Of a stretch of 64,000 bases of DNA, positions 17,611 through 34,045 are shown piece after piece; within the stretch, counting starts at the first letter, position 1; every line of letters begins with the position of its first letter. Source of the stretch: a virus. The stretch lies in IMG/VR virus record IMGVR_UViG_3300023174_000089, positions 50,874 to 114,873 of that record; one strand, given 5' to 3'. The notes beneath the pieces are model-generated. The model had not been told where the DNA came from, made no database searches, and saw only the letters and a list, made by a program, of their open reading frames with translations. The position numbers and the translations under genes are program-made.

Positions 17611-17661
17611 ATTGTATCACAACCACGGAATAACACAAACGAGTGTTGTATGGACACAACA
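17611..17661 (-). promoter_or_regulatory. Promoter with upstream TGTTGT-N6-ACAACA palindrome
   Basis: Minus strand: -10 TACAAT (17616-17611), 16-bp spacer, -35 TTGTGT (17638-17633), then 5 bp, then the palindrome at 17644-17661. One of six copies with this layout. Drives the operon starting at 17584. The palindrome ends immediately downstream of the neighbouring gene's stop. Confidence 0.75.
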
Positions 17662-17880
17662 TCATTCAGGTATCAACTCCAATTTACCAATGCCAATGTA
17701 TTCTTCAATGGACTTCTTTAGGTTGCGCTTGGAGGTCGATGGTGCCACGAACACATAGTCCTGATGGTCACCGTCCTTAGGCGCAAGGACGCTGTTTAAA
17801 TAGGTCAAAGCATCAACAGGATTGCTGAACTCTTTTTTACCTACATTATTACATAGATTTGGTTTTGCAATGTATTTCAT
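17662..17880 (-). CDS. Small hypothetical protein
   Basis: 72 aa, mixed alpha/beta (MKYIAKPNLCNN.. KEFSNPVDALTYLNSVLA.. DYVFVAPSTSKRNLKKSIEEYIG). ATGA overlap with the upstream gene. No known family. Confidence 0.7.
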   Translation of the reverse strand: MKYIAKPNLCNNVGKKEFSNPVDALTYLNSVLAPKDGDHQDYVFVAPSTSKRNLKKSIEEYIGIGKLELIPE

Positions 17881-18170
17881 TTCTTACCTTTTGTTTTTTC
17901 TGCCAATTGTTCACGCAAGGCAGCACATTCTTCTTCAAGCATTTTGTTCTTACGAACTTCTGCCATCATTACATCTTCAAACAAACTCCACAACTTATGG
18001 AATTTCACATCATAAACATGAGCAAGAGCCATTACTTGGTTTGAAAAAGAATCTTCACTATTGTTTTCTACCCAACCTTCAAAGAGGCCTTCATCAAGCT
18101 CTTTGAGGTCATCCACAATACTCCAACATTTTACAATTTGTTGTTCAAAATCAAACCTGTCGCTCGGCAT
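17877..18170 (-). CDS. Conserved phage helical protein
   Basis: 97 aa. Helices include FDFEQQIVKCWSIVDDLKELDEGLF, FSNQVMALAHVYDVKFHKLWSLFEDVM and a C-terminal coiled coil ending in KTKGKK. Found in many phage accessory regions. Function unknown. Overlaps the next upstream gene by 20 bp. Confidence 0.78.
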   Translation of the reverse strand: MPSDRFDFEQQIVKCWSIVDDLKELDEGLFEGWVENNSEDSFSNQVMALAHVYDVKFHKLWSLFEDVMMAEVRKNKMLEEECAALREQLAEKTKGKK

Positions 18171-18324
18171 AAGTTTTCATCCATTCTGTTAAAATATTTT
18201 TGGCTTCTCTACGCTCAAGGCCAAAAGCTTGTTGCAAATAAGGTGCAGCACCAAACATATTGGTTACACCAGTTTCACGCAATGTATCCAAATACTCAAA
18301 CATTTCTTCTTTATCGAGTGTCAT
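18151..18324 (-). CDS. Conserved small phage protein
   Basis: 57 aa. EEMFEYLDTLRETGVTNMFGAAPYL followed by FGLERREAKNILTEWMKTY is a recurring small phage family of unknown function. The start is not preceded by a strong ribosome-binding site (GGAAAATT). Single helical domain that could bind a protein partner. Confidence 0.78.
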   Translation of the reverse strand: MTLDKEEMFEYLDTLRETGVTNMFGAAPYLQQAFGLERREAKNILTEWMKTYAERQV

Positions 18325-18351
18325 AATTTTCCATAATATAAAAAGGTGCCA

Positions 18352-18398
18352 ATCATATAGCCCGAGCGTTTCACAACGAGTCTAAAAAACTATATGAT
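18352..18398 (-). other. Structured intergenic RNA or hairpin
   Basis: 9-bp perfect inverted repeat ATCATATAG (18352-18360) and CTATATGAT (18390-18398) with an inner small stem CGTT-GTGA-AACG in the 29-base loop. Lies in the 84-bp gap after the stop of the 108-residue gene. No T-run follows, so it is not a standard terminator; it could be a processing or stability element. Confidence 0.45.
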
Positions 18399-18408
18399 GG
18401 CAGAGAGA

Positions 18409-18735
18409 TTAGGCAGCGACTGATTCTGATTGAACCGCAGCTACTTTAGGTTGTGCCTTAGCAACAGCACCTTTGAAACGGCCATTGGCATCGAATTGAT
18501 CAAAGTTAACCAATTGGTACGCTTGAACTTTGCGACCACTCTTGATTACTTTAACGATACCACCATCTTTACGAATGTTATAGATGTTGGTACTCAAACG
18601 ATACAATACTTTTTCTTGATCGGTGCCTTTGAATACTGCCTCGATTTCAGCAGGACTTACAGGTTTACCAGATAATAATACTTGGGTAATTTTCTCATGA
18701 CGGTTTACCTTACCTTTACGAACTGTTAATGCCAT
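18409..18735 (-). CDS. Winged-helix-like DNA-binding protein (putative)
   Basis: 108 aa. Residues about 13-75 (HEKITQVLLSGKPVSPAEIEAVF, then LYRLSTNIYNIRKDGGIVKVIKSGRKVQAYQLV) have the helix-helix-helix then two-strand wing pattern of small winged-helix domains. The tail is Ala/Lys/Val-rich. A near-palindrome covers its promoter (18781-18804), so autoregulation is possible. Inference from pattern only. Confidence 0.7.
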   Translation of the reverse strand: MALTVRKGKVNRHEKITQVLLSGKPVSPAEIEAVFKGTDQEKVLYRLSTNIYNIRKDGGIVKVIKSGRKVQAYQLVNFDQFDANGRFKGAVAKAQPKVAAVQSESVAA

Positions 18736-18775
18736 TGTGATACTCCTTCAAATAAACATAATAAAAATGTATCCT

Positions 18776-18804
18776 ATTATACACAAGAACCTAGGTTTTT
18801 GTAT
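18776..18804 (-). promoter_or_regulatory. Promoter with CCTAGG-centred palindromic operator
   Basis: Minus strand -10 TATAAT at 18781-18776. The region just upstream is a 24-bp near-palindrome (18781-18804) centred on AACCTAGGTT with two mismatched pairs; it fills the spacer and the weak -35. Controls the 108-residue gene. Its sequence differs from the TGTTGT family. Confidence 0.6.
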
Positions 18805-18834
18805 ACTATATGATACATACACATAACCATTCTA

Positions 18835-19983
18835 TCATACCTGTGGTTGGTTGGCAACCTCAGATGTGGTAGAAATGGTACTTGTATTGGCAGGTGATTC
18901 TACCGAACTATCAACCTTCGAATACAAATCCAGAAATGCCATTTTCGTTTCTTCATCAAAGCGATTCACACACAAGGTGATGGCCTTCATGCGGTCTTTG
19001 AAAATGGTAAAAGCTTTTGCAATATGTACCAATCGGCGAGTGGAAATAATCTCATCAGTAGCACCTTCGTCATATGATTTGCGTACCACATCTGCCCATT
19101 GTACCAAATGATCCACAAATTCTTTGTCATCAATTAATGGTGTAAGAATCTTTTTCTCAGTTTTGGCATCAGGATATTCCTGTTCTACCGTAATTGGAAA
19201 ACGCTCTAAGAAAGCATCATCAAGAATCTGTGATAGATACTTGCCTTCATCACTACCACGACCTTTGGTGTTGGCGGTGGCGATGATAGTAAAGCCAGAT
19301 TTTGGATATACCATTTCACCTGATTTCTTATTGTAATGTGGTTTGCCTTCCATAATACCTTGCAAGCACATTAGTTTGTTTGAACCACGGTCAACTTCGT
19401 CAATCAACAATACTGCGCCACGCTTCATAGCGGTGATAACAGGACCATCACGATTGACCACATTACCATTGACCAATGTAGGACCACCAAGCAAATCAGT
19501 TTCATCAGTTTCAACCGAAATGTTTACACGAATACATTCACGCTGTAATTCGGCACACACTTGCTCAACCATCAAGGTCTTACCATTACCTGATAAACCA
19601 GTAATGAAAATTGGATAGAATGCTTTGCTTGATACAATGTTTCGTAAATCTTTGTAGAAACCAAATGGCACATAATCAGGCCATTTTTGTGGCACCGATG
19701 GTTCGTTCTCATCAACCAATTTTGGCTGGCGGAACTCTAACACTTGTGCATAAGCCATTTCAGTTTCAGGTTCTTGCTGTGCTTGTTTCACAACTGGTTC
19801 ACCTGATGCAGGCACTTTGTATTGGCCTCGGTCATGGCGATATTGTGCCTTCGTAACCAACCAATATGGATACGGTGCACCTGATTCGTTACATACTCTT
19901 GTAATGTCATCACGATTCAAAATTGGTTCAACACCAAAAATTGATTCTGCTGCTGTTACAAAAGCTTTTGCATTTTTATTCAT
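18835..19983 (-). CDS. cobS: CobS-like AAA+ ATPase
   Basis: 382 aa. Walker A GLSGNGKT at 129-136, Walker B VLLIDEVD at 191-198, and a sensor region TIIATANTKGRGSDEGKY. Resembles the CobS homologue conserved in T4-like cyanophages and the MoxR/CbbQ ATPases. These pair with a VWA protein; the matching CobT-like partner is at 30904-33015. True CobS/CobT insert cobalt into corrin, but the phage pair more likely remodels a protein complex. Confidence 0.92.
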   Translation of the reverse strand: MNKNAKAFVTAAESIFGVEPILNRDDITRVCNESGAPYPYWLVTKAQYRHDRGQYKVPASGEPVVKQAQQEPETEMAYAQVLEFRQPKLVDENEPSVPQKWPDYVPFGFYKDLRNIVSSKAFYPIFITGLSGNGKTLMVEQVCAELQRECIRVNISVETDETDLLGGPTLVNGNVVNRDGPVITAMKRGAVLLIDEVDRGSNKLMCLQGIMEGKPHYNKKSGEMVYPKSGFTIIATANTKGRGSDEGKYLSQILDDAFLERFPITVEQEYPDAKTEKKILTPLIDDKEFVDHLVQWADVVRKSYDEGATDEIISTRRLVHIAKAFTIFKDRMKAITLCVNRFDEETKMAFLDLYSKVDSSVESPANTSTISTTSEVANQPQV

Positions 19984-20012
19984 ACATTCTCCAATTAATC
20001 ATAACAAAATAC

Positions 20013-20098
20013 TGGTGGGTAAGGATGGATTCGAACCAACTCAGCCTGAGGCAACGGATTTACAGTCCGCTGTAGCTCTCCAACTCTACGGCTTACCC
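20013..20098 (-). tRNA. tRNA-Tyr (GTA)
   Basis: 86 bases including encoded CCA. Acceptor stem GGGTAAG/CTTACCC is perfect. D stem GTAG/CTAC, anticodon loop CTGTAAA giving GTA, a long variable arm GCCT-CA-GGC as in bacterial tRNA-Tyr, and T loop TTCGAAT. The T stem has one T-T mismatch. It has its own palindrome-type promoter at 20112-20139. Confidence 0.95.
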
Positions 20099-20111
20099 AA
20101 TTTAACCTACC

Positions 20112-20162
20112 ATTATACAGGTGCCACATCAAATGTCAATCGACTGTTGTTTTTTAGCAACA
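20112..20162 (-). promoter_or_regulatory. Promoter with TGTTGT-N6-ACAACA-type palindrome (tRNA-Tyr)
   Basis: Minus strand TATAAT (20117-20112), 16-bp spacer, TTGACA (20139-20134), 5 bp, then the palindrome at 20145-20162 (one arm reads GCAACA on the plus strand). The palindrome lies inside the last codons of the SWIM-domain gene. Transcribes the tRNA and then the CobS-like gene. Confidence 0.8.
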
Positions 20163-20536
20163 CTCTCCGAATGCTTACATTTACCACGATACGAATAACC
20201 AACACAATTACATTGGTACTTACCAGATTCTAAGGTGACTGTATAGGTCTTGCCAGAATCACTCTTAACCTGCCAGTTAGGCACATTCAAAGCTTCTGGT
20301 TGGTCAACCACCACCGTTGCACCTATGGCGTCCAATTCTTTGTGTTTGACCTTCACGAACTTACGCCTACGAGTATCCATTGGTAATGGTTTCTTGAATA
20401 CCATCACCTGACCATCACTCTCACGAGCATAGGCCAATATATTGGATTTACCATCAAACAAATAGGTATGATTAGGCACCACAAAATCTGGTTCATTCCA
20501 TTCTGTAATTTCTTTGTATGCTGATATACCCATCAT
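20129..20536 (-). CDS. SWIM zinc-finger protein
   Basis: 135 aa. The C-terminal SWIM motif is YQCNCVGYSYRGKCKHSESV (C-x-C, then C-x-H). The N-terminal 90 residues include a basic RRRKFVKVKHKEL stretch. SWIM domains bind DNA or proteins. ATGA overlap with the upstream gene. The last codons double as the palindrome of the tRNA promoter. Confidence 0.85.
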   Translation of the reverse strand: MMGISAYKEITEWNEPDFVVPNHTYLFDGKSNILAYARESDGQVMVFKKPLPMDTRRRKFVKVKHKELDAIGATVVVDQPEALNVPNWQVKSDSGKTYTVTLESGKYQCNCVGYSYRGKCKHSESVAKKQQSIDI

Positions 20537-20727
20537 TCATCTTTCCATTGGTCATTTTCACCGGTTTCAGTCCAAACATTCCAAATCTTTGCTTCTGGCC
20601 AACCGAGTTTAATACTATACACCGCCTCTTGTGCTGAAATGGCGGATACTTCTTCATAGTGGTGATTATTAACCTTACTCATAGGATGAATTGAATCATC
20701 TACAAATTCAACCAAGTAATAATTCAT
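20533..20727 (-). CDS. Small hypothetical protein
   Basis: 64 aa, starting MNYYLVEFVDDSIHPMSKV and with ISAQEAVYSIKLGWPEAKIWNVW. It looks like a small alpha/beta domain built of strand, helix, strand. ATGA overlaps on both sides. Function unknown. Confidence 0.75.
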   Translation of the reverse strand: MNYYLVEFVDDSIHPMSKVNNHHYEEVSAISAQEAVYSIKLGWPEAKIWNVWTETGENDQWKDE

Positions 20728-20897
20728 TCTTCTTCCTGAGCCAAAGCTTCAAACACATTTTGGTAAATGATGTAAATATTTTCATCACCATGTTGTTTGA
20801 AAAATTGTTGTTTGCAATCTTCCATATCTTCGGCACCAAAATGATATTGATTGCCTTCAACTGTTTCAACCATATAAATTTTATAATCAAAGCTCAT
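20724..20897 (-). CDS. Small acidic hypothetical protein
   Basis: 57 aa. MSFDYKIYMVETVEGNQYHFGAED then a helix (DCKQQFFKQHG), a strand and an EEE C-terminus. Same strand-helix-strand size and pattern as its neighbour at 20533, so the two may be paralogues. Coupled by ATGA. Confidence 0.72.
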   Translation of the reverse strand: MSFDYKIYMVETVEGNQYHFGAEDMEDCKQQFFKQHGDENIYIIYQNVFEALAQEEE

Positions 20898-21088
20898 TAT
20901 GTTCTCGCAATGTTAGTATTGTACCGCTCTTCATAAATTAATACGATAGTATCATCAGTCAGCTCACGCAAATTATCAGCCAGCAACTCTTTGGTCACAG
21001 CCAATAATTCTGTTTTCTTGAGCTTTTTGATATCAAGCATCGAATCATTTACCAATTCATCAATTAATTGATTAATTTGTCTACTCAT
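20897..21088 (-). CDS. Small helical phage protein
   Basis: 63 aa, three helices (INQLIDELVNDSMLDIKKL, ELLAVTKELLADNLREL, DDTIVLIYEERYN). Belongs to a family of small acidic proteins seen beside early genes in many phages. Function unknown. Confidence 0.75.
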   Translation of the reverse strand: MSRQINQLIDELVNDSMLDIKKLKKTELLAVTKELLADNLRELTDDTIVLIYEERYNTNIART

Positions 21089-21089
21089 A

Positions 21090-21323
21090 TTAGTCCAATA
21101 ATATCATGTATGCTGAAGCGTTATTGCTACGAAACCAATCAAGGCCTTTACGAACACCTTTATAATCACCCATCAATTCACAACCTTTGAGGTAATCATA
21201 AACTGCAACCTCATCAGGTGTTAGAACTGTGCTCTCACCACTAAACGGGTTTTGCACCTCAACTGGTTTTTTATCCAATACCATAATGCCTGGAAATAAT
21301 TCTTGAATCGATTTCTTTTTCAT
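21090..21323 (-). CDS. Conserved small phage protein
   Basis: 77 aa. IQELFPGIMVLDKKPVEVQNPFSGES then LTPDEVAVYDYLKGCELMGDYKGVRKGLDWFRSNN. The C-terminal part recurs in many phage genomes. No enzyme motif; soluble. Confidence 0.78.
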   Translation of the reverse strand: MKKKSIQELFPGIMVLDKKPVEVQNPFSGESTVLTPDEVAVYDYLKGCELMGDYKGVRKGLDWFRSNNASAYMILLD

Positions 21324-21784
21324 GCTGTTTCCTTTTCTTTACAAAACTCAACAAAATCAACCAATGAACCATTAAAGATTTCTTCGTAGGTTTCATCATT
21401 TGTCATACCAAAGAAATTACAACCACAATTCATTACAATGATTTTCAATCCGTTCTCTTGCTTATAAATGTGATATTCATAATCTTGACCACAATCTTTA
21501 GCAATTACAGGATACAAATAGAAACCACCTGGTTCTTGTTTGAAGTGTGCTACCAATTGTGCAGCCAAATCACCCATACCATTGAATACCACTTCTTTGA
21601 CCGTTTTCGTATGAATCAAGCCATTCACCATACGACCACCAGATAGAAACTCGGCCAATTCGGCACCATGGCCTGTTGGATAACCATCATACTGACGATA
21701 AAAATTGATAATTGGTTCATTCACTACTGAACCTTTTTCTGTTATGTAAGAATCATACACAAATGTTAAACTTCTGGTACCCAT
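21320..21784 (-). CDS. Widespread phage protein of unknown function
   Basis: 154 aa. Starts MGTRSLTFVYD, with NFYRQYDGYPTGHGAELAEFL and a central KEPGGFYLYPV-type block. A long-recognised family in phages and bacteria with no assigned role. GGAG precedes the ATG. Confidence 0.85.
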   Translation of the reverse strand: MGTRSLTFVYDSYITEKGSVVNEPIINFYRQYDGYPTGHGAELAEFLSGGRMVNGLIHTKTVKEVVFNGMGDLAAQLVAHFKQEPGGFYLYPVIAKDCGQDYEYHIYKQENGLKIIVMNCGCNFFGMTNDETYEEIFNGSLVDFVEFCKEKETA

Positions 21785-21793
21785 AAATTCTCC

Positions 21794-22111
21794 TTAATGA
21801 CTACGATTATTAGCCCATCTAACACCACGCTGAAATGCCTCACGCTCAATACGAATCTCACGGACAGTCCGTGCATCACGCTCATACACATCAAAAGCTT
21901 TTGCATCACGCTTACGAGTAGAACTTGCACCACGATTACGAGGACCACGGAACATTACAAAATATTTGGTAAAATCAATGAATTGTTTTATTGTTTCATA
22001 GTTACCAATTGGCATACCTTTGTAGATTGACCGAAAGCCAACAGGCGATATGTGATTGGCAAATATTGCTTTCATCACTGCTTCTTTTTCTTCATAACTA
22101 AACTGTTTCAT
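21794..22111 (-). CDS. Small basic hypothetical protein
   Basis: 105 aa. MKQFSYEEKEAVMKAIFANHISPVGFRSIYKG then a basic C-terminal half (RGPRNRGASSTRKRDAK, REIRIEREAFQRG). The charge suggests nucleic-acid contact. No recognised domain. Shares its operon with the genes at 22112-22691. Confidence 0.7.
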   Translation of the reverse strand: MKQFSYEEKEAVMKAIFANHISPVGFRSIYKGMPIGNYETIKQFIDFTKYFVMFRGPRNRGASSTRKRDAKAFDVYERDARTVREIRIEREAFQRGVRWANNRSH

Positions 22112-22405
22112 TTACGCTCCACACCATCTAATATGATTAAAATTACCAGTTAATACATTACCACGAGCAAAGTTTCTTGCCGGTGCATTCCATGATGCTG
22201 ATTTGAGAATGTCACCACGCTTAAACTTTTTATCATCTACCAACATCACCCACGAATGTGAACTGCGTTGGTTATCTTCCATGATGATATGCACATACTT
22301 ACGACCATTTACAAAATAAAATTTTTTGTTATTGTAAGCCGCTGTATTGGTATAATCATTAGCCAGATGGTTTACATAATTTTGAATTGCTTTATCTAAA
22401 TCCAT
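22112..22405 (-). CDS. Conserved small phage protein
   Basis: 97 aa. DLDKAIQNYVNHL.. NGRKYVHIIMEDNQRSSHSWVMLVDDKKFKRGDILKSASW. Beta-rich; related proteins occur in many T4-like aquatic phages. Function unknown. Followed by the next gene after 1 bp. Confidence 0.78.
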   Translation of the reverse strand: MDLDKAIQNYVNHLANDYTNTAAYNNKKFYFVNGRKYVHIIMEDNQRSSHSWVMLVDDKKFKRGDILKSASWNAPARNFARGNVLTGNFNHIRWCGA

Positions 22406-22406
22406 A

Positions 22407-22691
22407 TTAACCTCTACTCAAATTAATCACACGAAAATCAAATTCCATAAAACTGGTTTGGTGCGGTACAAACATAATCTTACCAACACGATTCTTTTTA
22501 TTAGGTCTGGTTTCAAACTTCACAAACTTATCAGCAGTCACCGTAATTTTGTAGCAGTTAAAACCAGGTTCATTACAATTTGCCTGCTCTACCACGCCTT
22601 CAATAAATGCATCATCACGACCAGCACATGGTTTAAAATCATATGCACGAATCACATCACCAACTTTTGCAATACCTTCAAATTTCAACAT
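22407..22691 (-). CDS. Small beta-rich hypothetical protein
   Basis: 94 aa from ATG 22691, preceded by TAGGAGC. A TTG 18 bases upstream would swallow this ribosome-binding site. KVGDVIRAYDFKPCAGRDDAFIEGVVEQ and a VGKIMFVP strand suggest a small barrel. First gene after the promoter at 22721-22748. Confidence 0.75.
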   Translation of the reverse strand: MLKFEGIAKVGDVIRAYDFKPCAGRDDAFIEGVVEQANCNEPGFNCYKITVTADKFVKFETRPNKKNRVGKIMFVPHQTSFMEFDFRVINLSRG

Positions 22692-22720
22692 ATTATAGCT
22701 CCTACTCAATTAATACTACC

Positions 22721-22771
22721 ATTATACACTTACCACAGGGGTTTTCAAGCCCCTGTTGTAAATATACAACA
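22721..22771 (-). promoter_or_regulatory. Promoter with TGTTGT-N6-ACAACA palindrome
   Basis: Minus strand TATAAT (22726-22721), 16-bp spacer, TTGAAA (22748-22743), 5 bp, palindrome at 22754-22771 with perfect TGTTGT and ACAACA arms. A CAGGGG..CCCCTG hairpin overlaps the -35. The palindrome adjoins the stop of the 43-residue gene. Drives 22691 and downstream. Confidence 0.85.
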
Positions 22772-22903
22772 CTATTTGGTCTTTTTAATAGAATACCCTT
22801 TTAATAAAACCCATTCCACATACGCCTGAACGATTGCTGGTGTATCTGGCGTTTCCTGTTGAAGTGCCTTTAATTCTTTGATTGTAAATTCCCATTTACT
22901 CAT
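22772..22903 (-). CDS. Small helical protein
   Basis: 43 aa: MSKWEFTIKELKALQQETPDT then a second helix (IVQAYVEWVLLKGYSIKKTK). Located just upstream of a palindrome promoter. ATG follows the previous stop by 2 bases. No known family. Confidence 0.65.
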   Translation of the reverse strand: MSKWEFTIKELKALQQETPDTPAIVQAYVEWVLLKGYSIKKTK

Positions 22904-22905
22904 AA

Positions 22906-23079
22906 TTATGCCAAACTTTCATAATCTTCAATAATGTGCCGTTCTGACATATTATCATATTTTTCAATAATCAACTCTTTAAGAGCTTCGAGCAATTCAC
23001 CACGGTTCGATGTTTGAAAATAATTCATTTTATCACGAACCAAGGCTTCACGCATACGGTCAACATTTGAGATACTCAT
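22906..23079 (-). CDS. Small helical hypothetical protein
   Basis: 57 aa, acidic and helical (SNVDRMREALVRDKMNYFQTSNRGELLEALKELIIEKYDNM). Starts inside a coupled operon (ATGA with the upstream gene). Not recognised. Confidence 0.68.
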   Translation of the reverse strand: MSISNVDRMREALVRDKMNYFQTSNRGELLEALKELIIEKYDNMSERHIIEDYESLA

Positions 23080-23276
23080 ACGGTCTCCTTAAACCATTCA
23101 GTCCAGAGCTCTCGCTCATTCATTTCATTCACCAATTCTTCATCGGTAAAATTGTCATAGCCTTTGAAACCAGAATACAAAAAATCAAATAGAAAATCCG
23201 TATCGACACCATTATTTTGAATACTATCAAAATCAGAGTCAATTAGCATTTTAATCATTTCTTGCCGTCTACTCAT
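23076..23276 (-). CDS. Small acidic hypothetical protein
   Basis: 66 aa from ATG 23276 with GAGGAC upstream; a longer frame to 23348 lies inside the neighbouring gene and is unlikely to be translated. MSRRQEMIKMLIDSDFDSIQNNGVDTDFLFDFLYSGFKGY then an acidic helix. Similar proteins are common in phage early regions. Confidence 0.7.
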   Translation of the reverse strand: MSRRQEMIKMLIDSDFDSIQNNGVDTDFLFDFLYSGFKGYDNFTDEELVNEMNERELWTEWFKETV

Positions 23277-23277
23277 A

Positions 23278-23817
23278 TTAATTATTGTCCTCTTCCGCAT
23301 TTTCTTCTTCCCATTCACGCATGGATTCGGTGATACAATACATTTCATTCAAAGCTTCGGGAAGATATTCTTCCGCTTCATCAGCATTCATGCCAGAATA
23401 ATCATAGAATTCATCCACGCCTTCATACACACCAGCAAAACCCATACCAGGTTCATAGTAATATGCACGAACCGCAAAACCTAATTGTTCCAACTGCTCA
23501 TAGGCCTGTATTGGAGGACCCCATGGACTATCAAATGAACCAGTCAGCGTATTACCATCAACCTCACACTCATAAGGGCTGATATCCCACTTGGTACCCC
23601 AATTATTCACACACCACGAGTACCAATCAGAGGCACCATACTTCTCCTGTAATTCTTCATTGGTGAACCGAGCAGGTGCCGTGGTGTCTTCCAACTCTTT
23701 TGGTAGTGGAATAAACTCATTCAACAATGTGCCATCAGCAAATGCTTTGGTGGCACGCTCGACCATCGCTTTATCAGGATGAGATAACTCAATATTATTA
23801 TTACACCAATTTGGCAT
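23278..23817 (-). CDS. Api92/YubB-like conserved phage protein
   Basis: 179 aa. Starts MPNWCNNNIELSHPDKAMVERAT, a hallmark of the DUF1281/Api92 family seen in phages and plasmids. DWYSWCVNNWGTKWDI and TLTGSFDSPWGPPIQAYEQLEQLGF are the family blocks. Activity unknown. GGAG lies upstream of the ATG at 23817. Confidence 0.88.
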   Translation of the reverse strand: MPNWCNNNIELSHPDKAMVERATKAFADGTLLNEFIPLPKELEDTTAPARFTNEELQEKYGASDWYSWCVNNWGTKWDISPYECEVDGNTLTGSFDSPWGPPIQAYEQLEQLGFAVRAYYYEPGMGFAGVYEGVDEFYDYSGMNADEAEEYLPEALNEMYCITESMREWEEENAEEDNN

Positions 23818-23819
23818 AT

Positions 23820-23903
23820 TCAAAACTCCTTAATCACAAAATAAATTAATAACGCTGATGCTACCATATACAACAAAATACCTACATTAATTGCAAGCAT
23901 CAT
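23820..23903 (-). CDS. 27-residue membrane miniprotein
   Basis: Starts MMLAINVGILLYMVASALLIYFVI, one membrane helix and little else. The start ATGATG overlaps the upstream stop (TATGATG). An ATG at 23921 would give 33 residues. Short, so evidence is the coupling and hydrophobicity. Confidence 0.5.
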   Translation of the reverse strand: MMLAINVGILLYMVASALLIYFVIKEF

Positions 23904-24022: not shown

Positions 24023-24026
24023 ATAA

Positions 24027-24245: not shown

Positions 24246-24265
24246 TTTCTCCAAATAATACAACT

Positions 24266-26006: not shown

Positions 26007-26067
26007 ATTATAAAGGTATGGTATGGAATGTCAATAAAAATCGAACATCCGTTGTAAAAAAACAACA
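26007..26067 (-). promoter_or_regulatory. Promoter with palindrome at 15 bp
   Basis: Minus strand TATAAT (26012-26007), 16-bp spacer, TTGACA (26034-26029), then 15 bp, then CGTTGT-N6-ACAACA (26050-26067). The gap is 10 bp longer than in its sister promoters, about one helical turn, so the same face of the helix is presented. Drives the Gp88-like gene. Confidence 0.85.
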
Positions 26068-27698: not shown

Positions 27699-27876
27699 GG
27701 AGTTGTTTCTCTAATTCATTAATACGGTCTACAAGTTTCATTACATCTTCAACTGGTACCCATTTACCAGAGATATCGGTACAGAAGGCTCTCATACGGT
27801 CACCCGAAATATGAATGGTTTGTTGGTTATATCCAATATTATGTTTCTCTAAAGTTTCTACCATACTCTTATTCAT
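27685..27876 (-). CDS. Small hypothetical protein
   Basis: 63 aa. MVETLEKHNIGYNQQTIHISGDRMRAFCTD followed by a helix (WVPVEDVMKLVDRINELEKQLHG). ATG at 27876 or, better placed, codon 5. Overlaps the HNH start by 14 bp, which may mark the insertion point of the HNH gene. Confidence 0.7.
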   Translation of the reverse strand: MNKSMVETLEKHNIGYNQQTIHISGDRMRAFCTDISGKWVPVEDVMKLVDRINELEKQLHGSR

Positions 27877-28114
27877 GTTGTATCAAAGTCCTTTCTTGTA
27901 TTAACCAGTATCTTTCTACAGCAGCCTTAGCGGTTTCAGAATTAATATACATGCCTAATGAAATAGCTTGACTGGTATTAGGATAAACTGTGGTGGTATG
28001 TTTCGTATTAATCTGATGACCAGCACGGTTTACTTCACCAATGATTCGACCAGTATCATCATAGTATAGAAAGTGTGCAACGGTCTCTCCGTCCTTCCAT
28101 TGGTGGATATTCAT
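27869..28114 (-). CDS. Small hypothetical protein
   Basis: 81 aa. MNIHQWKDGETVAHFLYYDDTGRIIGEVNRAGHQIN then a C-terminal helix (TAKAAVERYWLIQERT). Resembles short beta-hairpin proteins in phages. ATGA overlap with the membrane protein upstream. Confidence 0.72.
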   Translation of the reverse strand: MNIHQWKDGETVAHFLYYDDTGRIIGEVNRAGHQINTKHTTTVYPNTSQAISLGMYINSETAKAAVERYWLIQERTLIQHE

Positions 28115-28266
28115 ATAAACCTATCTGGTCGATCAAAGACCATTGCGATACCACAGATAGTCAGAAGAAGATAACCTTTCGGTGTTTTCTCTTTGAAGAA
28201 CCAGAAAGATGGTGAAAGCCAAAGAGATGGATAAGTCCAGTATTGGAAGATGTGTAGTAACCTCAT
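28111..28266 (-). CDS. Small amphipathic or membrane protein
   Basis: 51 aa: MRLLHIFQYWTYPSLWLSPSFWFF, then KEKTPKGYLLLTICGIAMVFDRPDRFI. Aromatic-rich with one or two membrane-prone stretches. ATGA at its end. Coupled in operon. Confidence 0.65.
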   Translation of the reverse strand: MRLLHIFQYWTYPSLWLSPSFWFFKEKTPKGYLLLTICGIAMVFDRPDRFI

Positions 28267-28481
28267 TTGGCGTCCCTATCTTTAATGAGTAAATTGGAAA
28301 TTGTTTTCCCATTTTGGTCGGTGCAAATCCAAGTATGGCTCAGCGGCTTCTGAGGCCGACATTGGAGAATGATTTCCCGACCTTTAGAATCTTTTGCGGG
28401 AGCCTCGGAAGGCGCTTCTTGTCCGGAGGCGGCGGAAACGCAGAGGATTAAGAGAGATGGTATTAGAAGGAGTTTTGCCAT
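28263..28481 (-). CDS. Small exported protein
   Basis: 72 aa. Signal peptide at about 1-20 (MAKLLLIPSLLILCVSAASG), then a Pro/Glu/Ala linker and a part with two Cys (LQCRPQKPLSHTWICTD) that likely form a disulfide. Periplasmic or surface role inferred; no family. Confidence 0.72.
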   Translation of the reverse strand: MAKLLLIPSLLILCVSAASGQEAPSEAPAKDSKGREIILQCRPQKPLSHTWICTDQNGKTISNLLIKDRDAK

Positions 28482-28513
28482 AATATAATGATACGTTTCG
28501 CAGAGGCGTTTCG

Positions 28514-28684
28514 CTATTGTGTGAGGTTACGCCAGAGGTCCTTGTAAGTTTCGATGAGGGTTATCCAGAGAGTAATCACGGTACGGATCGGATGCTCAAT
28601 GAGGGTTGCGAATGCGATGAGTGTTGCTGGTATGGCAACCAGAACGGTGATGATAAAGCCGATAATGCCTAAAAACGTAATCAT
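28514..28684 (-). CDS. 56-residue membrane protein
   Basis: Residues about 3-30 are one long membrane segment (ITFLGIIGFIITVLVAIPATLIAF), followed by a second amphipathic part. Its stop is followed by a GCGAAACG direct repeat (28500-28516). Holin-like size and shape, but nothing else supports that. Confidence 0.65.
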   Translation of the reverse strand: MITFLGIIGFIITVLVAIPATLIAFATLIEHPIRTVITLWITLIETYKDLWRNLTQ

Positions 28685-28929
28685 GTTGTTTCTTTCACAT
28701 ATTCATTTGAAATGGTTCGTGCTTCTTCTTCGGTGGTGGCGGTACGAACAGCCTGCCACACTCTGTTATTATAACATTCAATGGTGTAATGAGTTCTACG
28801 GTCATATACATCAGCCTGTCGGCTGTTTTCGGTAATACTAAATTTAGGTCCTAGTTTTTGTGTTGTCATATTTAAGTCAAGCGGTATCTGTTCAGTTAAT
28901 GGTGTAAAAAATAAATTCTTTTGTACCAT
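28681..28929 (-). CDS. Small hypothetical protein
   Basis: 82 aa from ATG 28929, which overlaps the upstream stop (TAATG). DLNMTTQKLGPKFSITENSRQADVYDRRTHYTIECYN.. TATTEEEARTISNEYV. Small soluble domain, unknown role. The frame also extends 12 bases upstream. Confidence 0.7.
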   Translation of the reverse strand: MVQKNLFFTPLTEQIPLDLNMTTQKLGPKFSITENSRQADVYDRRTHYTIECYNNRVWQAVRTATTEEEARTISNEYVKETT

Positions 28930-29198
28930 TATCTCTCCCACTTTTGACCGCCCTTCAGAAAATCAATAATCTTTTTGGATGTAGACACATGACGATCCTT
29001 CACTTTAAGCAACTCATCAAATTCTTTAGATAGAATAGTTAATTTTTTACTTTCTATAACCGCATCTTCGTAACCTGGATGATAAGGTGCTTCTGCAACA
29101 AGGTTCGGTTCTTCCATGCCGTTGGCAGAAGATGGTGTTACACAAGTTAAACCTGGATCATAAGCCGCTTTTCTATCATCTGATGTAAATGTGGTCAT
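28929..29198 (-). CDS. Small hypothetical protein
   Basis: 89 aa. N-terminal polar region with LTCVTPSSANGMEEPNL, C-terminal helices (KLTILSKEFDELLKVKDRHVSTSKKIIDFLKG). ATGG/TAATG coupling with the next gene. No known motif. Confidence 0.7.
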   Translation of the reverse strand: MTTFTSDDRKAAYDPGLTCVTPSSANGMEEPNLVAEAPYHPGYEDAVIESKKLTILSKEFDELLKVKDRHVSTSKKIIDFLKGGQKWER

Positions 29199-29199
29199 A

Positions 29200-29391
29200 T
29201 TATCTCCTATCGAATTCTTGATCTAACTCCATTTCTTTACGAATCTCATCAATACGGTGTTGTAATACAGAAGCGGCCGTATTAAAATGTCCTGTGCCTT
29301 CGGATTTAGGTTTATAGTAGTGTCGTAATAAAGTTTCTTTTTCGGTTTCTAAAACGGCAATATATTCTTCGTTAGTAATATCAAAAGGCAT
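29200..29391 (-). CDS. Small helical protein
   Basis: 63 aa from ATG 29391, which has GGAG 6 bases upstream; the frame extends to an earlier ATG at 29403. MPFDITNEEYIAVLETEKETLLRHYY then a coiled C-terminus. Overlaps the GroES stop region by none; 1 bp gap. Confidence 0.7.
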   Translation of the reverse strand: MPFDITNEEYIAVLETEKETLLRHYYKPKSEGTGHFNTAASVLQHRIDEIRKEMELDQEFDRR

Positions 29392-29392
29392 A

Positions 29393-29653
29393 TCATTCTC
29401 CAAAAATTAAAACAATCTCATTCTCACTTACAATATAATAATCTTTATTGTCGTATTTGATTTTTCTTGCTTGGTTCCAATTGGGTAATACCAGATCACC
29501 TTCTTTGACTAATTCGACATTTGGTCCAAGTGATACTACTTTACCTCGATTGGCTTCTGCTGGATCGGCCGATGAAAGAACAATACCAGAACTGGTAACC
29601 TTTTCTTTCTCGATCAACTCTACTGCTACATTATTCTTGATAGGTCTTAACAA
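29393..29653 (-). CDS. GroES-type co-chaperonin
   Basis: 86 aa, slightly shorter than GroES (97). RPIKNNVAVELIEKE at the start, SSGIVLSSADPAEANRGKVVSLGP (mobile-loop and dome region) and KYDNKDYYIVSENEIVLIF at the end match the cpn10 fold. T4 instead uses the distant gp31; a true GroES in a phage would steer host GroEL folding of phage proteins, probably the capsid. Confidence 0.93.
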   Translation of the reverse strand: MLRPIKNNVAVELIEKEKVTSSGIVLSSADPAEANRGKVVSLGPNVELVKEGDLVLPNWNQARKIKYDNKDYYIVSENEIVLIFGE

Positions 29654-29840
29654 TTACAAATCTCCTTCCATCATTACACATAGTTACCACATCTATTGGA
29701 GCATCATAACTCAACTTATTACAATTATACTGTATCTCAATCATTTTGTCAAATTTTTTGTGGTAATCATCATTAGACGTATAGGCATAGGCCATCGTCA
29801 AGGCAATTATAAAGAGGGAGAGTCGGAGATATTCTAACAT
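29631..29840 (-). CDS. Small exported or membrane protein
   Basis: 69 aa from ATG 29840 (MLEYLRLSLFIIALTMAYAYTS), a signal or anchor followed by NDDYHKKFDKMIEIQYNCNKL and a second Cys near TMCNDG. The 3' end overlaps the GroES ATG by 23 bp. Role unknown. Confidence 0.65.
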   Translation of the reverse strand: MLEYLRLSLFIIALTMAYAYTSNDDYHKKFDKMIEIQYNCNKLSYDAPIDVVTMCNDGRRFVIVKTYQE

Positions 29841-29859
29841 ACCCTTATATATGCCAGTA

Positions 29860-29979
29860 TTATCTCCGTTGCGCCGCCAACTGGTCAATTACCTCTTGTA
29901 TTTTATTTCGTATATAACTACCATGTGGCGTCCAAGGCAGAAGATGTTTTAGAAATTTCAGTAGTTCATCAGGATGCAT
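29860..29979 (-). CDS. 39-residue helical protein
   Basis: MHPDELLKFLKHLLPWTPHG then SYIRNKIQEVIDQLAAQRR. Starts inside the last codons of the upstream gene. Weak ribosome-binding site, so coupled translation is needed. Low-evidence gene. Confidence 0.5.
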   Translation of the reverse strand: MHPDELLKFLKHLLPWTPHGSYIRNKIQEVIDQLAAQRR

Positions 29980-30259
29980 CTTTGAAAATACTCGACCATT
30001 TTTCTAGTTTCTTCTTTTTAAGTTCCATATAGGTCATCAAATCTTCTTCGTTGACTACCTTTTGTTCTACTAATAATCCAATCATACAAAGTAACTGTCC
30101 TAGTTCCATCGTTAGGCATTCTCTGGTTGTTGGTGAATCTTCATTTGGGTAACACGAATCAAAACCGAACCGAAATATCTTTGAGGCGGATTGAATTACT
30201 TCAGCACATTCTTCTTGTAATATAATTAATGTTTCTCTTGTTTTATTTTCCACAATCAT
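29969..30259 (-). CDS. MazG-like NTP pyrophosphohydrolase
   Basis: 96 aa. The helical EExxE motif is EECAEVIQ near residues 16-23, with a second acidic pair in ELGQLLCM (about 52-60). The all-alpha NTP-PPase family hydrolyses non-canonical nucleotides or, in cyanophage MazG, may influence nucleotide pools. Function by family only. Overlaps both neighbours. Confidence 0.8.
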   Translation of the reverse strand: MIVENKTRETLIILQEECAEVIQSASKIFRFGFDSCYPNEDSPTTRECLTMELGQLLCMIGLLVEQKVVNEEDLMTYMELKKKKLEKWSSIFKDAS

Positions 30260-30509
30260 CTTCTACAAATTTAATTACAGGCATGTATTCTTCCACTTTT
30301 TTAATTGCTGCCTCTTTTGTGGGAGCAATTACTTTGCAAGTATACAAACCATCTTTCATACTAATCGTAAATGGTACAACACCATTAATAAACCATTCTT
30401 CTTGCACATAACACTTGATATGCCATTCTCTGGCATCAAGGCAGCGTTTAATCATTTCATCAGCAATTTTCTTAGGATTGAATTCATCTTCAGCAATCAT
30501 ATTAGACAT
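30243..30509 (-). CDS. Small hypothetical protein
   Basis: 88 aa from ATG 30509 with AAGGTGG upstream; the frame extends to 30524. NMIAEDEFNPKKIADEMIKRCLDAREW, then strands and a C-terminal helix (AAIKKVEEYMPV). Overlaps the gene at 30502. Not recognised. Confidence 0.7.
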   Translation of the reverse strand: MSNMIAEDEFNPKKIADEMIKRCLDAREWHIKCYVQEEWFINGVVPFTISMKDGLYTCKVIAPTKEAAIKKVEEYMPVIKFVEDDCGK

Positions 30510-30711
30510 CATTCCACCTTTCAACTAAAAATTGTGGACCTTTCTTTTCTTCGGCCAGCACATAATCTTCGGCCAAATCTTCTGCTCGTTGATAGTCAGC
30601 CGTTGTTTCTTTTTTAATTATCTTATCATTCAGATAATAGACAATCGTATAATTGAAATCAGCTCGTTCAACAATTGCTTTTTTATCACCATTCATAAAA
30701 GTAGACATTTG
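30502..30711 (-). CDS. Small hypothetical protein
   Basis: 69 aa from ATG 30711, which has GGAG 6 bases upstream; a longer frame to 30816 reads across the previous gene and is unlikely. IVERADFNYTIVYYLNDKIIKKETTADYQRAEDLAEDYV is a beta-hairpin plus helix domain, like other miniproteins here (30716, 30243). Confidence 0.7.
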   Translation of the reverse strand, partial: QMSTFMNGDKKAIVERADFNYTIVYYLNDKIIKKETTADYQRAEDLAEDYVLAEEKKGPQFLVERWNDV

Positions 30712-30715
30712 CATT

Positions 30716-30907
30716 TTATTCTCCAAAGGCATATTTCTTGGCAGCTTCTTCTGCTTCTTCTTCTGTTGCAAAAAACTCTGTCTTAAACAAATCAGACTCT
30801 TTAAAAAAGTCCACAATATATGGTGACATCACACAGGATGCCACGAATATAATTTCTGCATGCCGGTGACCTTGAGCACCGAAAAAGGATACGATTTCGT
30901 TAATCAT
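30716..30907 (-). CDS. Small hypothetical protein
   Basis: 63 aa. MINEIVSFFGAQGHRHAEIIFVASCVMSPYIVDFF, then an acidic helix EEEAEEAAKKYA. ATGA overlap with the CobT-like stop. Another strand-helix domain of the miniprotein series. Unknown function. Confidence 0.7.
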   Translation of the reverse strand: MINEIVSFFGAQGHRHAEIIFVASCVMSPYIVDFFKESDLFKTEFFATEEEAEEAAKKYAFGE

Positions 30908-33015
30908 GCTATTAGTCCTATAAAGCGATTCAACACAACACGGTTTGATAACCGGTTACCAGCATATTTACTAAATGCAGATACAAGACCACGAGTAGTT
31001 GCATTTTCTTTTACAACAAATTCTGTATCATCATCCGTATCTAGGCCTTCCGAACGGAGCAAATAATATTCATCAAAGCCAGCATTGGTTACAATCTTAT
31101 ACTTTTCTTTACGGAACTCAGATTTTAATTTGGCATGATCTGATGATCTCGGAAAGAAGTTATGTGCAACACGGCCAAACTCACGACTAGACAATACATA
31201 GAAACCAATAATGTTGCATTGTGTTCTGACCTTCAACATTTTGACATAAGCAGTCATCAACTCATTACCATAACTATGGTAAATCTTTTCTTCGTGTTTG
31301 GTAATAGGATCACGGAGAACAAGCACTTTTTCTTTACCATATGCAGAACCAAAATCTAAATCTGGATTATTGTAACCAGATAGTCTTTGTTTTTTGCCAT
31401 TACTATCTAAATTTGAGAACATAACATTTCTTACAGGATTACCATCACCATCGGTAAGAAATACCGTGTTTACAATTTGTAGTTTGTAATCTTTTTGAAA
31501 CTGTGGCACAATCTTCATGGCAGAGATTACACCCTCATAGAGAGGAGTTCCACCGAGCTGCATCCAGTGTGGTCGTGGTGCTCTAGGTTTAGCACAGCTC
31601 ACCAAAGCAGAACAAGCATAAGTGAATTCAGAAGCCGACATTTTACTTGATAACAAATTCATTAGTTTGAAACCATTTAAATCCAAATCACCTTCTTTAA
31701 AATCAACATGATACTTATCAGTATGTTCAGAGGTGAAAGCATATACTTCGTAAGGAATGTTTACCTTCTTACAGAACATGACCAAATTGATTAATTGTTT
31801 AACAGTATTTTCCATATGGTCAGACATAGAACCAGACCAATCAAGGAACATTACGAGACCATGTGATTTGCCTTCAGGTAACACAGTCATGCGTTTGAAA
31901 ATATCTTCGGTAAATTTATACGCATAAACTTTGTTAAGATTCAATTCACCAGTTTTGGCAATTGATGCACGTTTCTGTTGATCGGCATTCTTACGCAATT
32001 CAAATTCTTTGGCCAAATAACCAACAACTTTTTTAGCATCATTACGAATTTTCATAAATTCTGCTGTGTCAATACCAGACATATTATATTTGGCCAAATC
32101 GTTTTTGTATTCAGTCCATAATTGTTTGTATGGCATTACTGCTTTTTTCAAATCGATATCGTTGATATTACCATAATAGAAATGCCTGTTACTTGATTCG
32201 AATAGTTTGCTTTCATTCTTACGATACGATTTATCAGTGTGCGAATCCAATGCACCTTCATCACTGCCTTCATGGCCTGCTAGATTTTTCTGTTGTGCAC
32301 CACTTTCGATTTCATCCATTGATTCATCGGTGTTTGAATTCGGTTTGCCAAACTTTTCAATAACATCATCATCAAATTCATCAGAATCATCATAACCATC
32401 AGCCGAAAAATCACCATCTGGATTTTCTTCAAATTCAGGAATAGCTACTTGGCGTTCTTCTTTTTCTTTTTTCATATACGCCATTATTTTGTATGCAAGC
32501 TGAATCACATCATCATAAGTTTCAGTAGATTCGATTTCATTAACTAAACCACGCTCTTCGTCATTGAATTTGATACCTTGTGCTGCACCACCTTTTGTAT
32601 AAAGGTTTACACGGTCAATGAAATTCATATCGTTCAAATCTACACCACTGGTACCAAAGAAATCTTTTTCAATCAGTTCACGATAACCACGAACAAAAGA
32701 GGAACGAATACCAGGATATTTGTTTTTGATTTTTCTTTCAATACGAGAATCTTCCAGCACATTCATAATACCCATTGGGATTTTTTCTTCATGTGCTTTC
32801 ATCATACCATCTAAAGGAGTGTAAAGTGCATGGCCAACTTCGTGACCTAGAAAAAGATCATAGAGATAACCCGAGATGTTTTTATCAAGGACTGGAACGG
32901 TTAGGATACGGTTCTTTACATCAAACGCAGCTGTATTGGTATTGCGCTGTTCAATGGTTAAATTTTCGTTGGCCATTAGTTTGGCAAGTAATGATTTAGA
33001 TTGAATGAGTTCCAT
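30904..33015 (-). CDS. cobT: CobT-like VWA protein with HExxH motif
   Basis: 703 aa. An N-terminal HEVGH motif (residues 58-62, zinc-metallopeptidase type), then a mid region, an acidic linker (DDSDEFDDD, about 205-220), and a VWA domain with MIDAS motif DWSGSMSD (about residue 395). It corresponds to the CobT/peptidase protein of cyanophages, partner of the CobS-like AAA ATPase at 18835-19983. Corrin synthesis is unlikely; a protein-remodelling pair is more likely. Palindrome promoter at 33039-33067. Confidence 0.92.
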   Translation of the reverse strand: MELIQSKSLLAKLMANENLTIEQRNTNTAAFDVKNRILTVPVLDKNISGYLYDLFLGHEVGHALYTPLDGMMKAHEEKIPMGIMNVLEDSRIERKIKNKYPGIRSSFVRGYRELIEKDFFGTSGVDLNDMNFIDRVNLYTKGGAAQGIKFNDEERGLVNEIESTETYDDVIQLAYKIMAYMKKEKEERQVAIPEFEENPDGDFSADGYDDSDEFDDDVIEKFGKPNSNTDESMDEIESGAQQKNLAGHEGSDEGALDSHTDKSYRKNESKLFESSNRHFYYGNINDIDLKKAVMPYKQLWTEYKNDLAKYNMSGIDTAEFMKIRNDAKKVVGYLAKEFELRKNADQQKRASIAKTGELNLNKVYAYKFTEDIFKRMTVLPEGKSHGLVMFLDWSGSMSDHMENTVKQLINLVMFCKKVNIPYEVYAFTSEHTDKYHVDFKEGDLDLNGFKLMNLLSSKMSASEFTYACSALVSCAKPRAPRPHWMQLGGTPLYEGVISAMKIVPQFQKDYKLQIVNTVFLTDGDGNPVRNVMFSNLDSNGKKQRLSGYNNPDLDFGSAYGKEKVLVLRDPITKHEEKIYHSYGNELMTAYVKMLKVRTQCNIIGFYVLSSREFGRVAHNFFPRSSDHAKLKSEFRKEKYKIVTNAGFDEYYLLRSEGLDTDDDTEFVVKENATTRGLVSAFSKYAGNRLSNRVVLNRFIGLIA

Positions 33016-33038
33016 AAATTCTCCGAGTTAATACGAAT

Positions 33039-33090
33039 ATTATCTCATATTCCACATACTTTGTCAAATGAGTGTTGTATGAAAACAACA
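33039..33090 (-). promoter_or_regulatory. Promoter with TGTTGT-N6-ACAACA palindrome
   Basis: Minus strand -10 GATAAT (33044-33039), 17-bp spacer, -35 TTGACA (33067-33062), 5 bp, palindrome 33073-33090. Drives the CobT-like gene and the operon that follows. The palindrome ends 2 bp before the stop of the upstream gene. Confidence 0.85.
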
Positions 33091-33091
33091 A

Positions 33092-33259
33092 TCATTTAAA
33101 CGAATACATTTCCTGAATCTTTTGGTACTCGGAAAGGTCTTTTTCCATACCAGATAATACTGCCCATTTCCGAGTAACGATATCCAAGCGTTTCCACGCA
33201 GGAATTTCATCATCATCTACGATTGCATTTAGCCAAAAATAGTTGGATTTTTCATCCAT
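33092..33259 (-). CDS. Small hypothetical protein
   Basis: 55 aa from ATG 33259 with AAGGA upstream; the frame extends to 33322 but that part overlaps the neighbour. MDEKSNYFWLNAIVDDDEIPAWKRLDIVTRKWAVLSG. Acidic N-terminus. Unknown role. Confidence 0.68.
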   Translation of the reverse strand: MDEKSNYFWLNAIVDDDEIPAWKRLDIVTRKWAVLSGMEKDLSEYQKIQEMYSFK

Positions 33260-33440
33260 GATTTTTTCCTTCGTTTTTATCAAAAATTCGTTGTTCAATC
33301 GCAGTTGCCAGCTCATCGGCAAGCTTCGGATTGAATTTTACCAGAAAATGAGCGACATCATCAGCTGGTATATGACGCAGATTGTGCATAATTTCATCAA
33401 TTCCACGATAAATTTGTGTTTCTTCCCATTGTGTTAACAT
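33252..33440 (-). CDS. Small helical hypothetical protein
   Basis: 62 aa from ATG 33440 with GAGG upstream. MLTQWEETQIYRGIDEIMHNLRHIPADDVAHFLVKFNPKLADELATAIEQRIF. Helical, no transmembrane part. The longer frame to 33518 is a read-through of the upstream gene. Confidence 0.7.
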   Translation of the reverse strand: MLTQWEETQIYRGIDEIMHNLRHIPADDVAHFLVKFNPKLADELATAIEQRIFDKNEGKNHG

Positions 33441-33447
33441 ATTTACC

Positions 33448-33615
33448 TCACATTTTATAAAAAGTTTCATTCGGAACAATAATTTTGCCTTCTTTTTTTG
33501 CTTTTCCGAGCGTTTCAAGCAATTTTAACTCAATTTCGAGCTCTTTGGCAGACAAATTTTGCAAATATTCCTCATAATCGTCCCAATCTTCATTATTCCA
33601 GCCTTTTGGATTCAT
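33448..33615 (-). CDS. Small acidic hypothetical protein
   Basis: 55 aa. MNPKGWNNEDWDDYEEYLQNLSAKELEIELKLLETLGKAKKEGK then IIVPNETFYKM. Helical and acidic with a Trp-rich start. Unknown function. Neighbours are coupled within 10 bp. Confidence 0.65.
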   Translation of the reverse strand: MNPKGWNNEDWDDYEEYLQNLSAKELEIELKLLETLGKAKKEGKIIVPNETFYKM

Positions 33616-33621
33616 TTTTGA

Positions 33622-33966
33622 CTATCTCCGCATGCTGGAAATTTCTTTTGCTTCAGTATCCGTGAAAACCGGCACAGCATTTGACTTATGCATTGTAGCC
33701 ACACCTTTCATTTTGTCACCTGTATAAGAAAATGGAAGTTTTTTTGTGCAAGGCACAAAACCAGTATCTACGGACGCAAATTTAGGAGTTTCTCGACCTA
33801 CAGGAACCTTGTAAGAAGGAACATTGTTATAATTCTTCGTGGATTTGGTTTTACTGAAATTGGTAGTGATTGAATTAATGGTAGTTAACCATTCTTCGTT
33901 TTGAATTTGCTTGGCTTTTGAAACCTTGCGTTGTTTGCTTTTTGGAATATATCCGTAGATCATCAT
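33622..33966 (-). CDS. Conserved phage protein
   Basis: 114 aa from ATG 33966, preceded by GGAG; a longer frame continues to 34020. YGYIPKSKQRKVSKAKQIQNEEWLTTINSI, a Thr/Ser-rich middle, then PKFASVDTGFVPCTKKLPFSYTG and KGVATMHKSNAVPVFTD. The C-terminal half is a recurring phage domain. Unknown function. Confidence 0.8.
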   Translation of the reverse strand: MMIYGYIPKSKQRKVSKAKQIQNEEWLTTINSITTNFSKTKSTKNYNNVPSYKVPVGRETPKFASVDTGFVPCTKKLPFSYTGDKMKGVATMHKSNAVPVFTDTEAKEISSMRR

Positions 33967-33991
33967 AACAATTCTCCATTGTAGAAGAACC

Positions 33992-34045
33992 ATTATACTA
34001 CAGGAATAGGGGAATGTCAATACAGAATGTTGCTAGGATACAACA
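33992..34045 (-). promoter_or_regulatory. Promoter with TGTTGC-N6-ACAACA palindrome
   Basis: Minus strand TATAAT (33997-33992), 17-bp spacer, TTGACA (34020-34015), 7 bp, palindrome 34028-34045 with one arm TGTTGC. Drives the operon starting at 33966. The 34046-34118 stretch upstream holds a weak A-T hairpin (34103-34120) and otherwise nothing supportable. Confidence 0.85.

Follow-up and report, generated by a model that had tools for sequence, protein, structure and literature searches.

Introduction

In class I and class II activation by CRP and FNR, dimers occupy upstream sites at about -61, -81 and -91, all on the same helix face, and their half-sites are spaced as TTG-N8-CAA, the FNR half-site being TTGAT. 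Among phages, the late promoters controlled by P2 Ogr and P4 delta carry an upstream TGT-N12-ACA dyad at about -55 together with a poor -35 element and require a phage protein, and at T4 middle promoters the MotA box, which is not a dyad, replaces the -35 element at about -30. Genomes of T4-like cyanophages carry 1-16 NtcA sites each, of the form GTA-N8-TAC, before diverse phage genes (Sullivan et al. 2010, PMC3037559). Here we analyze an 18-bp palindrome, TGTTGT-N6-ACAACA (for example, TGTTGTAAAAAAACAACA), which lies upstream of six sigma70 promoters in 64,000 nucleotides of phage DNA (hereafter, the window), bases 50874-114873 of the 114,873-bp IMG/VR contig IMGVR_UViG_3300023174_000089. Our comparisons of sequence point to a putative gene activator of the host that the phage would borrow, by means of a palindrome that it shares, on the same helix face, with the regions before outer-membrane genes of freshwater methylotrophs.

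Results

The palindrome marks a subset of promoters in the window

A first-pass annotation had described six sites with the layout palindrome, short gap, -35 and -10. All six are present where it placed them, on the minus strand, which is the coding strand of the region, and its gaps from palindrome to -35 (5, 5, 5, 15, 5 and 7 bp) and its -35/-10 spacers (16, 16, 16, 16, 17 and 17 bp) were likewise confirmed. The sites are listed below; dyads are counted at no more than one mismatch unless stated, and dyad centres were computed on the assumption that transcription starts 7 nt after the -10 element.

17644..17661, minus strand: dyad 1, TGTTGTGTCCATACAACA, exact, centre about -48.5
17611..17638, minus strand: promoter 1, TTGTGT-16-TACAAT, gap 5
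20145..20162, minus strand: dyad 2, TGTTGCTAAAAAACAACA, 1 mismatch, centre about -48.5, overlaps the 3' end of ORF 20129-20536
20112..20139, minus strand: promoter 2, TTGACA-16-TATAAT, gap 5, upstream of tRNA-Tyr and a CobS-like AAA ATPase gene
22754..22771, minus strand: dyad 3, TGTTGTATATTTACAACA, exact, centre about -48.5
22721..22748, minus strand: promoter 3, TTGAAA-16-TATAAT, gap 5
26050..26067, minus strand: dyad 4, TGTTGTTTTTTTACAACG, 1 mismatch, centre about -58.5
26007..26034, minus strand: promoter 4, TTGACA-16-TATAAT, gap 15 (one additional turn) with an A/T-rich linker, upstream of a gp88-family gene
33073..33090, minus strand: dyad 5, TGTTGTTTTCATACAACA, exact, centre about -49.5
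33039..33067, minus strand: promoter 5, TTGACA-17-GATAAT, gap 5, upstream of the gene for a 703-aa protein
34028..34045, minus strand: dyad 6, TGTTGTATCCTAGCAACA, 1 mismatch, centre about -51.5
33992..34020, minus strand: promoter 6, TTGACA-17-TATAAT, gap 7

A search of the entire 114,873-bp contig returned six dyads, three of them exact, and all six were the promoter sites listed above. Shuffles of the contig gave a mean of 0.03 exact dyads (maximum 1) and of 1.27 dyads with up to one mismatch (maximum 6). When two mismatches were allowed, the window held 11 dyads and 7.4 were expected by chance, which is no excess, and the operator therefore tolerates little change. Two caveats apply to individual sites, in that dyad 2 (20145-20162) lies partly inside ORF 20129-20536, at its 3' end, and promoter 1 has a poor -35 element, TTGTGT. 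The dyad is absent from at least five further sigma70 promoters of near-consensus sequence in the window (-35 at 2455, 12502, 24294, 26878 and 29752), and it thus marks a subset of promoters. We also observed that the sequence TATAAT-GGT is conserved after the -10 element of dyad promoters in the window and in relatives, and that GTGG occupies the same place in the spacer of four of the six promoters, those with the 5-bp gap; each looks like an extra early-promoter element.

The dyad is helically phased in related phages

Searches that used the 703-aa protein and the AAA ATPase as queries yielded 118 loci (1.5 Mb) from related freshwater phages, which contained 344 dyads. The loop proved to be fixed at 6 bp, with 156 exact dyads at this length and 0, 1, 2, 0, 1 and 0 at loops of 4, 5, 7, 8, 9 and 10 bp, respectively; outward-facing control dyads numbered one. 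For the phasing count we began from 666 distinct promoters that had been found regardless of the dyad. Dyads lay at gaps of 5-7 bp in 84 cases, 15-17 bp in 55 and 8-14 bp in only 3, and the computed centres were -48.5 to -51.5 and -58.5 to -60.5. The fixed loop and the two gap classes therefore argue that the operator is real and helically phased. Contigs from ten relatives showed phasing of this kind for most dyads of the dyad-rich genomes; some genomes used the far class alone (G002 and G008) and some mostly the near class (G009). The -35 element in relatives is mainly TTGACA/T, and it is TTGACA in four of the six window promoters. Thus, as to the earlier proposal that an activator binds just upstream of RNA polymerase, the geometry stood, with the dyad at a fixed, helically phased place in two classes about one turn apart in dozens of relatives, as an activator that touches RNA polymerase would predict.

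That the palindrome is a chance, low-complexity word in an A/T-rich genome has a vanishingly small probability in our estimate. The two-mismatch count in the window, which does not rise above the shuffles, is what such an account would predict, but for sites with at most one mismatch it is excluded by the shuffles, by conservation and by the phasing.

At far-class sites, an A/T-rich stretch resembling AAATAATGC often separates the dyad from the -35 element, and a dyad-poor relative (L099/G010) has such a stretch alone. The far position would leave space for the C-terminal domain of the alpha subunit beside the -35 element. At some far-class sites (L108 19564, G002 100993 and G008 85403), the bases that follow the dyad, such as CCATTATACAGGA, read as the inverse of the -10 region (TCCTGTATAATGG), and this pair makes a second, larger inverted repeat around the -35 element. 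In L099 (1603-5519), many strong, partly overlapping bidirectional promoters were seen, with an AAAATARTGC-like stretch recurring just before TTGACT. Furthermore, some perfect or near-perfect dyads have no recognisable sigma70 promoter and lie between genes or a short way ahead of start codons; they were noted in G003 (136513, 138460 and 141681), G005 (100112, 101754 and 103446), L110 (3170) and L117 (4023).

Variation among sites indicates that the dyad is read as DNA

Across 116 distinct phage sites, the core GTTG-N8-CAAC was near-invariant, and variation was found at the outer and innermost bases of the half-sites, mostly in the promoter-distal half. Variants created C-A oppositions in 39 cases and A-A oppositions in 9 (48 in total), compared with 17 U-G wobble pairs. 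Because an RNA hairpin would not keep C-A and A-A oppositions, we conclude that the dyad is read as DNA. These observations bear on the suggestion that the palindrome is an RNA element, either a hairpin or the terminator of the upstream gene, and is near a promoter only incidentally, a suggestion which draws on the frequent location of the dyad just past the stop codon of the upstream gene. We consider it very unlikely, as pairing is not kept at the variant positions, the stem would consist of six weak pairs with no U-run, no compensatory changes between the arms were seen across relatives, and the distance to the downstream -35 element is fixed in two classes one turn apart. The terminator or hairpin candidate was accordingly ruled out on the pairing evidence.

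Occurrence of the dyad-promoter pattern in other sequences

The pattern dyad-gap(5-17)-TTG-TATAAT was present in at least 120 stretches of IMG/VR. In 257 Gb of prokaryotic genomes it gave only 20 scattered matches with no gap preference, which corresponds to background, and at least one of the 20 (L325) comes from a lake metagenome bin but resembles a phage contig. This contig (CAIMMJ010000313.1), binned in a Bacteroidetes metagenome-assembled genome from Lake Erken, encodes a gp88 homologue (71% identical) and a distant winged-helix homologue, and it holds all three exact dyads of its bin. Dyads out of register were seen in freshwater phages that include L204, L220, L287 and L291, which are apparently unrelated and in which the loop is often AAAAAT. 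A literature search with the literal motif returned unrelated papers only.

Methylophilaceae genomes carry the dyad before outer-membrane protein genes

Among 200 genomes of the order Burkholderiales (GTDB), 62 exact dyads were found against 34 controls, and several of those with A/T loops precede porin, FadL or pilin genes. The difference was larger in 120 genomes of one family, that of G204, with 104 exact dyads against 19 controls. We take this family to be Methylophilaceae, because 3-hexulose-6-phosphate synthase of the ribulose monophosphate (RuMP) pathway scored above the curated cut-off in 13 of 13 members tested, compared with 0 of 4 outsiders, and because the genomes measure 0.7-3.7 Mb. 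Outer-membrane protein genes, classed by eye from signal peptides and similarity, lie directly downstream of 44 of the 51 Methylophilaceae dyads inspected. Pfam matches to Porin_4, Porin_O_P, MlaA, OmpA, FadL or TonB receptor were obtained for 8 of 10 proteins sampled from Methylophilaceae and other Burkholderiales loci. A literature search on porin regulation in Methylophilaceae found nothing on point. In one 1.8-Mb genome (G217), the dyad lies inside a longer repeat at three places (L357, L358 and L359), possibly a mobile repeat.

To locate host promoters, we scored the best sigma70-like elements after 48 non-redundant dyads, mostly from Methylophilaceae and some from other Burkholderiales. 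The -35 element lay at a gap of 35-37 bp in 16 of the 48 (shuffles 2.6, maximum 8) and of 46-47 bp in 7, and 30 of the 48 were in the phage register, i.e., a gap of 5-7 bp modulo 10 (shuffles 14.3, maximum 23). The gaps of 35-37 and 46 bp equal the phage register plus 30 bp, and the computed centres of the host dyads are about -60, -81 and -91.

These positions also bear on the idea that the bound protein, of host or phage origin, represses from upstream, as an early shut-off or as a host defence against phage transcription. The promoters are already strong (the window has three TTGACA/TATAAT pairs), so that an activator may seem superfluous, and a repressor working through contact with RNA polymerase would be phased too. 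However, none of the dyads overlaps a core promoter, the same register is found before host outer-membrane protein genes, and the sites have been kept, not lost, in many phage lineages. Repression is therefore an improbable account in our judgement.

A phage-encoded winged-helix protein does not track the dyad

About 40 window proteins were scanned against Pfam and PHROG, and none was recognisable as a transcription factor. The best candidate for a phage regulator that would bind the dyad and activate, or later shut off, early promoters is a 108-aa protein encoded directly downstream of the CobS-like gene (18409-18735, minus strand). This ultraconserved protein was found by tblastn in all ten large relative contigs at 69-92% identity, and it is predicted to form a winged helix (helices 12-22, 28-33 and 43-57; strands 61-66 and 69-75; mean pLDDT 81), with many weak winged-helix matches in the PDB. 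A search of the collection of sequenced phages found no homologue, and there was no meaningful Pfam or PHROG match. The conservation, the predicted fold, the PDB matches and the lack of matches among sequenced phages would all suit such a regulator, but conservation is just as high in relatives that have few dyads or none (G010, G004 and G011). Of 30 other dyad-bearing contigs, a profile search recovered the protein in only 7, and it was not detected in large ones of other families (342, 345, 240, 148 and 121 kb). Because its distribution does not track the dyads, the 108-aa protein was rejected as the dyad binder. A phage regulator would also leave the dyads before host porin genes unexplained, and we consider a regulator of this kind doubtful. 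The loss of a zinc-finger-like ORF (20129-20536) in dyad-poor contigs was examined as a further clue and set aside as not specific, given that other genes of the region are also lost.

Phage context of the window

Nearly all window genes from 1.4 kb on are carried by the minus strand. Judged by its gene content, the window phage is a T4-like myovirus, because it encodes ribonucleotide reductase, a T4-type RNase H, a DnaB-like helicase, a T4-type single-stranded DNA-binding protein and helicase loader, a gp88-family protein and a CobS-like AAA ATPase. It is a freshwater phage, and a search for close sequenced phages found none. The 703-aa protein is 34-36% identical to cyanophage proteins annotated as peptidase. 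A permuted (two-piece) tmRNA with the tag ANDNKFALAA is encoded at 4667-5051 on the minus strand (Rfam tmRNA_permuted, 112 bits; alpha_tmRNA, 58 bits). In a lineage with permuted tmRNA, the family of G102, dyads were not above control in 269 genomes, and this family was rejected as a dyad carrier. Adjoining rubrerythrin-like and rubredoxin-like genes at 14142-14730 (minus strand), identified by eye, are probably host-derived.

Discussion

We favor a host rather than a phage activator for two reasons. The same dyad precedes Methylophilaceae outer-membrane genes in the same register, and it also turns up in unrelated phages from freshwater, where the search for the best candidate phage regulator did not find it. 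Probably, then, the phage exploits a putative host activator of outer-membrane genes to strengthen a subset of its presumed early promoters. The early-region regulon proposed in the first-pass annotation is thereby refined: the dyad does lie at a subset of early-type sigma70 promoters, and what was taken for a phage regulon would become one served by a host activator. We infer that one protein binds the phage and host dyads, that it activates when bound, and that its contact is with the alpha subunit of RNA polymerase. According to this model, the dyad, with its core GTTG-N8-CAAC, would be the operator of a homodimeric, host-encoded activator of freshwater betaproteobacteria, which in the host would act from about -60, -81 and -91 to drive the genes of outer-membrane proteins. 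At a subset of its sigma70 promoters, the phage would have placed the operator near -49 to -51 or near -59 to -60, with the helix face kept the same throughout, where the bound activator would contact RNA polymerase, most likely through the alpha C-terminal domain, and would favor these promoters, read by host RNA polymerase, early in infection. A broader version, to which we lean more cautiously, is that betaproteobacteria have a previously undescribed master activator, which controls outer-membrane proteins (porins, MlaA, OmpA, FadL and TonB receptors) and binds the dyad, and that several freshwater phage lineages have independently captured its operator as a plug-in for early promoters, at two positions one turn apart.

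Several observations weigh against a host activator. Dyads are few in some related phages (G010, G004 and G011), some dyads of relatives have no recognisable promoter after them, and among the matches listed, unrelated phages that share no or very few proteins carry the dyad at gaps of 8-11 bp, half a turn out of register. On the host side, the second batch of inspected dyads was hand-chosen and consists mostly of those with A/T loops, the host dyads include orthologues, and their loops are A/T-rich whereas many phage loops are not. Several dyad promoters are near-consensus and might need no activator. In addition, Methylophilaceae have a tmRNA in one piece (ANDDNYALAA and similar) whereas that of the phage is permuted, so that the phage tmRNA does not point to that host; the true host may therefore be another betaproteobacterium that shares the regulator.

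By analogy, the closest precedent is the set of NtcA sites in T4-like cyanophages. In both cases a T4-like phage carries several copies of a dyad, with half-sites N8 apart (here GTTG-N8-CAAC), before diverse phage genes, and the same operator also precedes host genes (here 104 against 19 controls in the 120 Methylophilaceae genomes). As would be expected of hijacking of the NtcA type, phage and host sites share promoter geometry (gaps of 5-7 and 15-17 bp versus 35-37 and 46 bp; 30 of 48 in register). The systems differ in half-site, in host phylum and in host targets, which here are outer-membrane protein genes and not nitrogen genes, and here the sites show strict two-position helical phasing and their host protein is a putative one.

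The spacing of trinucleotide half-sites in the core of the 116 phage sites, TTG-N8-CAA, is that of the CRP/FNR superfamily, and a regulator of this superfamily is for that reason a lead only. The host centres at about -60, -81 and -91 also resemble the CRP and FNR positions on one helix face. The half-site GTTGT differs from the TTGAT of FNR, and neither class I nor class II activation has canonical positions that match the phage centres near -49 to -51. The 18-bp dyad also reads TGT-N12-ACA, as do the P2 Ogr and P4 delta sites, but in contrast to P2 late promoters the -35 boxes are good here (TTGACA in four of six) and the dyad also precedes host genes; no Ogr-like zinc protein turned up in the family searches made. 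With MotA our sites share a T4-like phage and a predicted protein near the -35 region of sigma70 promoters, but the -35 element is present and the dyad lies further upstream.

The phages in this study serve as evolutionary reporters, and they yield a testable prediction of a host regulatory circuit of which we found no description in the literature searched. If the prediction is true, early transcription of the phage would be coupled to whatever physiological state governs porin production, and perhaps to receptor abundance. The dyad also offers an operator with which the regulator could be captured from freshwater methylotrophs, which are abundant and hard to grow, and the presence of the dyad in freshwater contigs might aid host prediction for phages known only from metagenomes.

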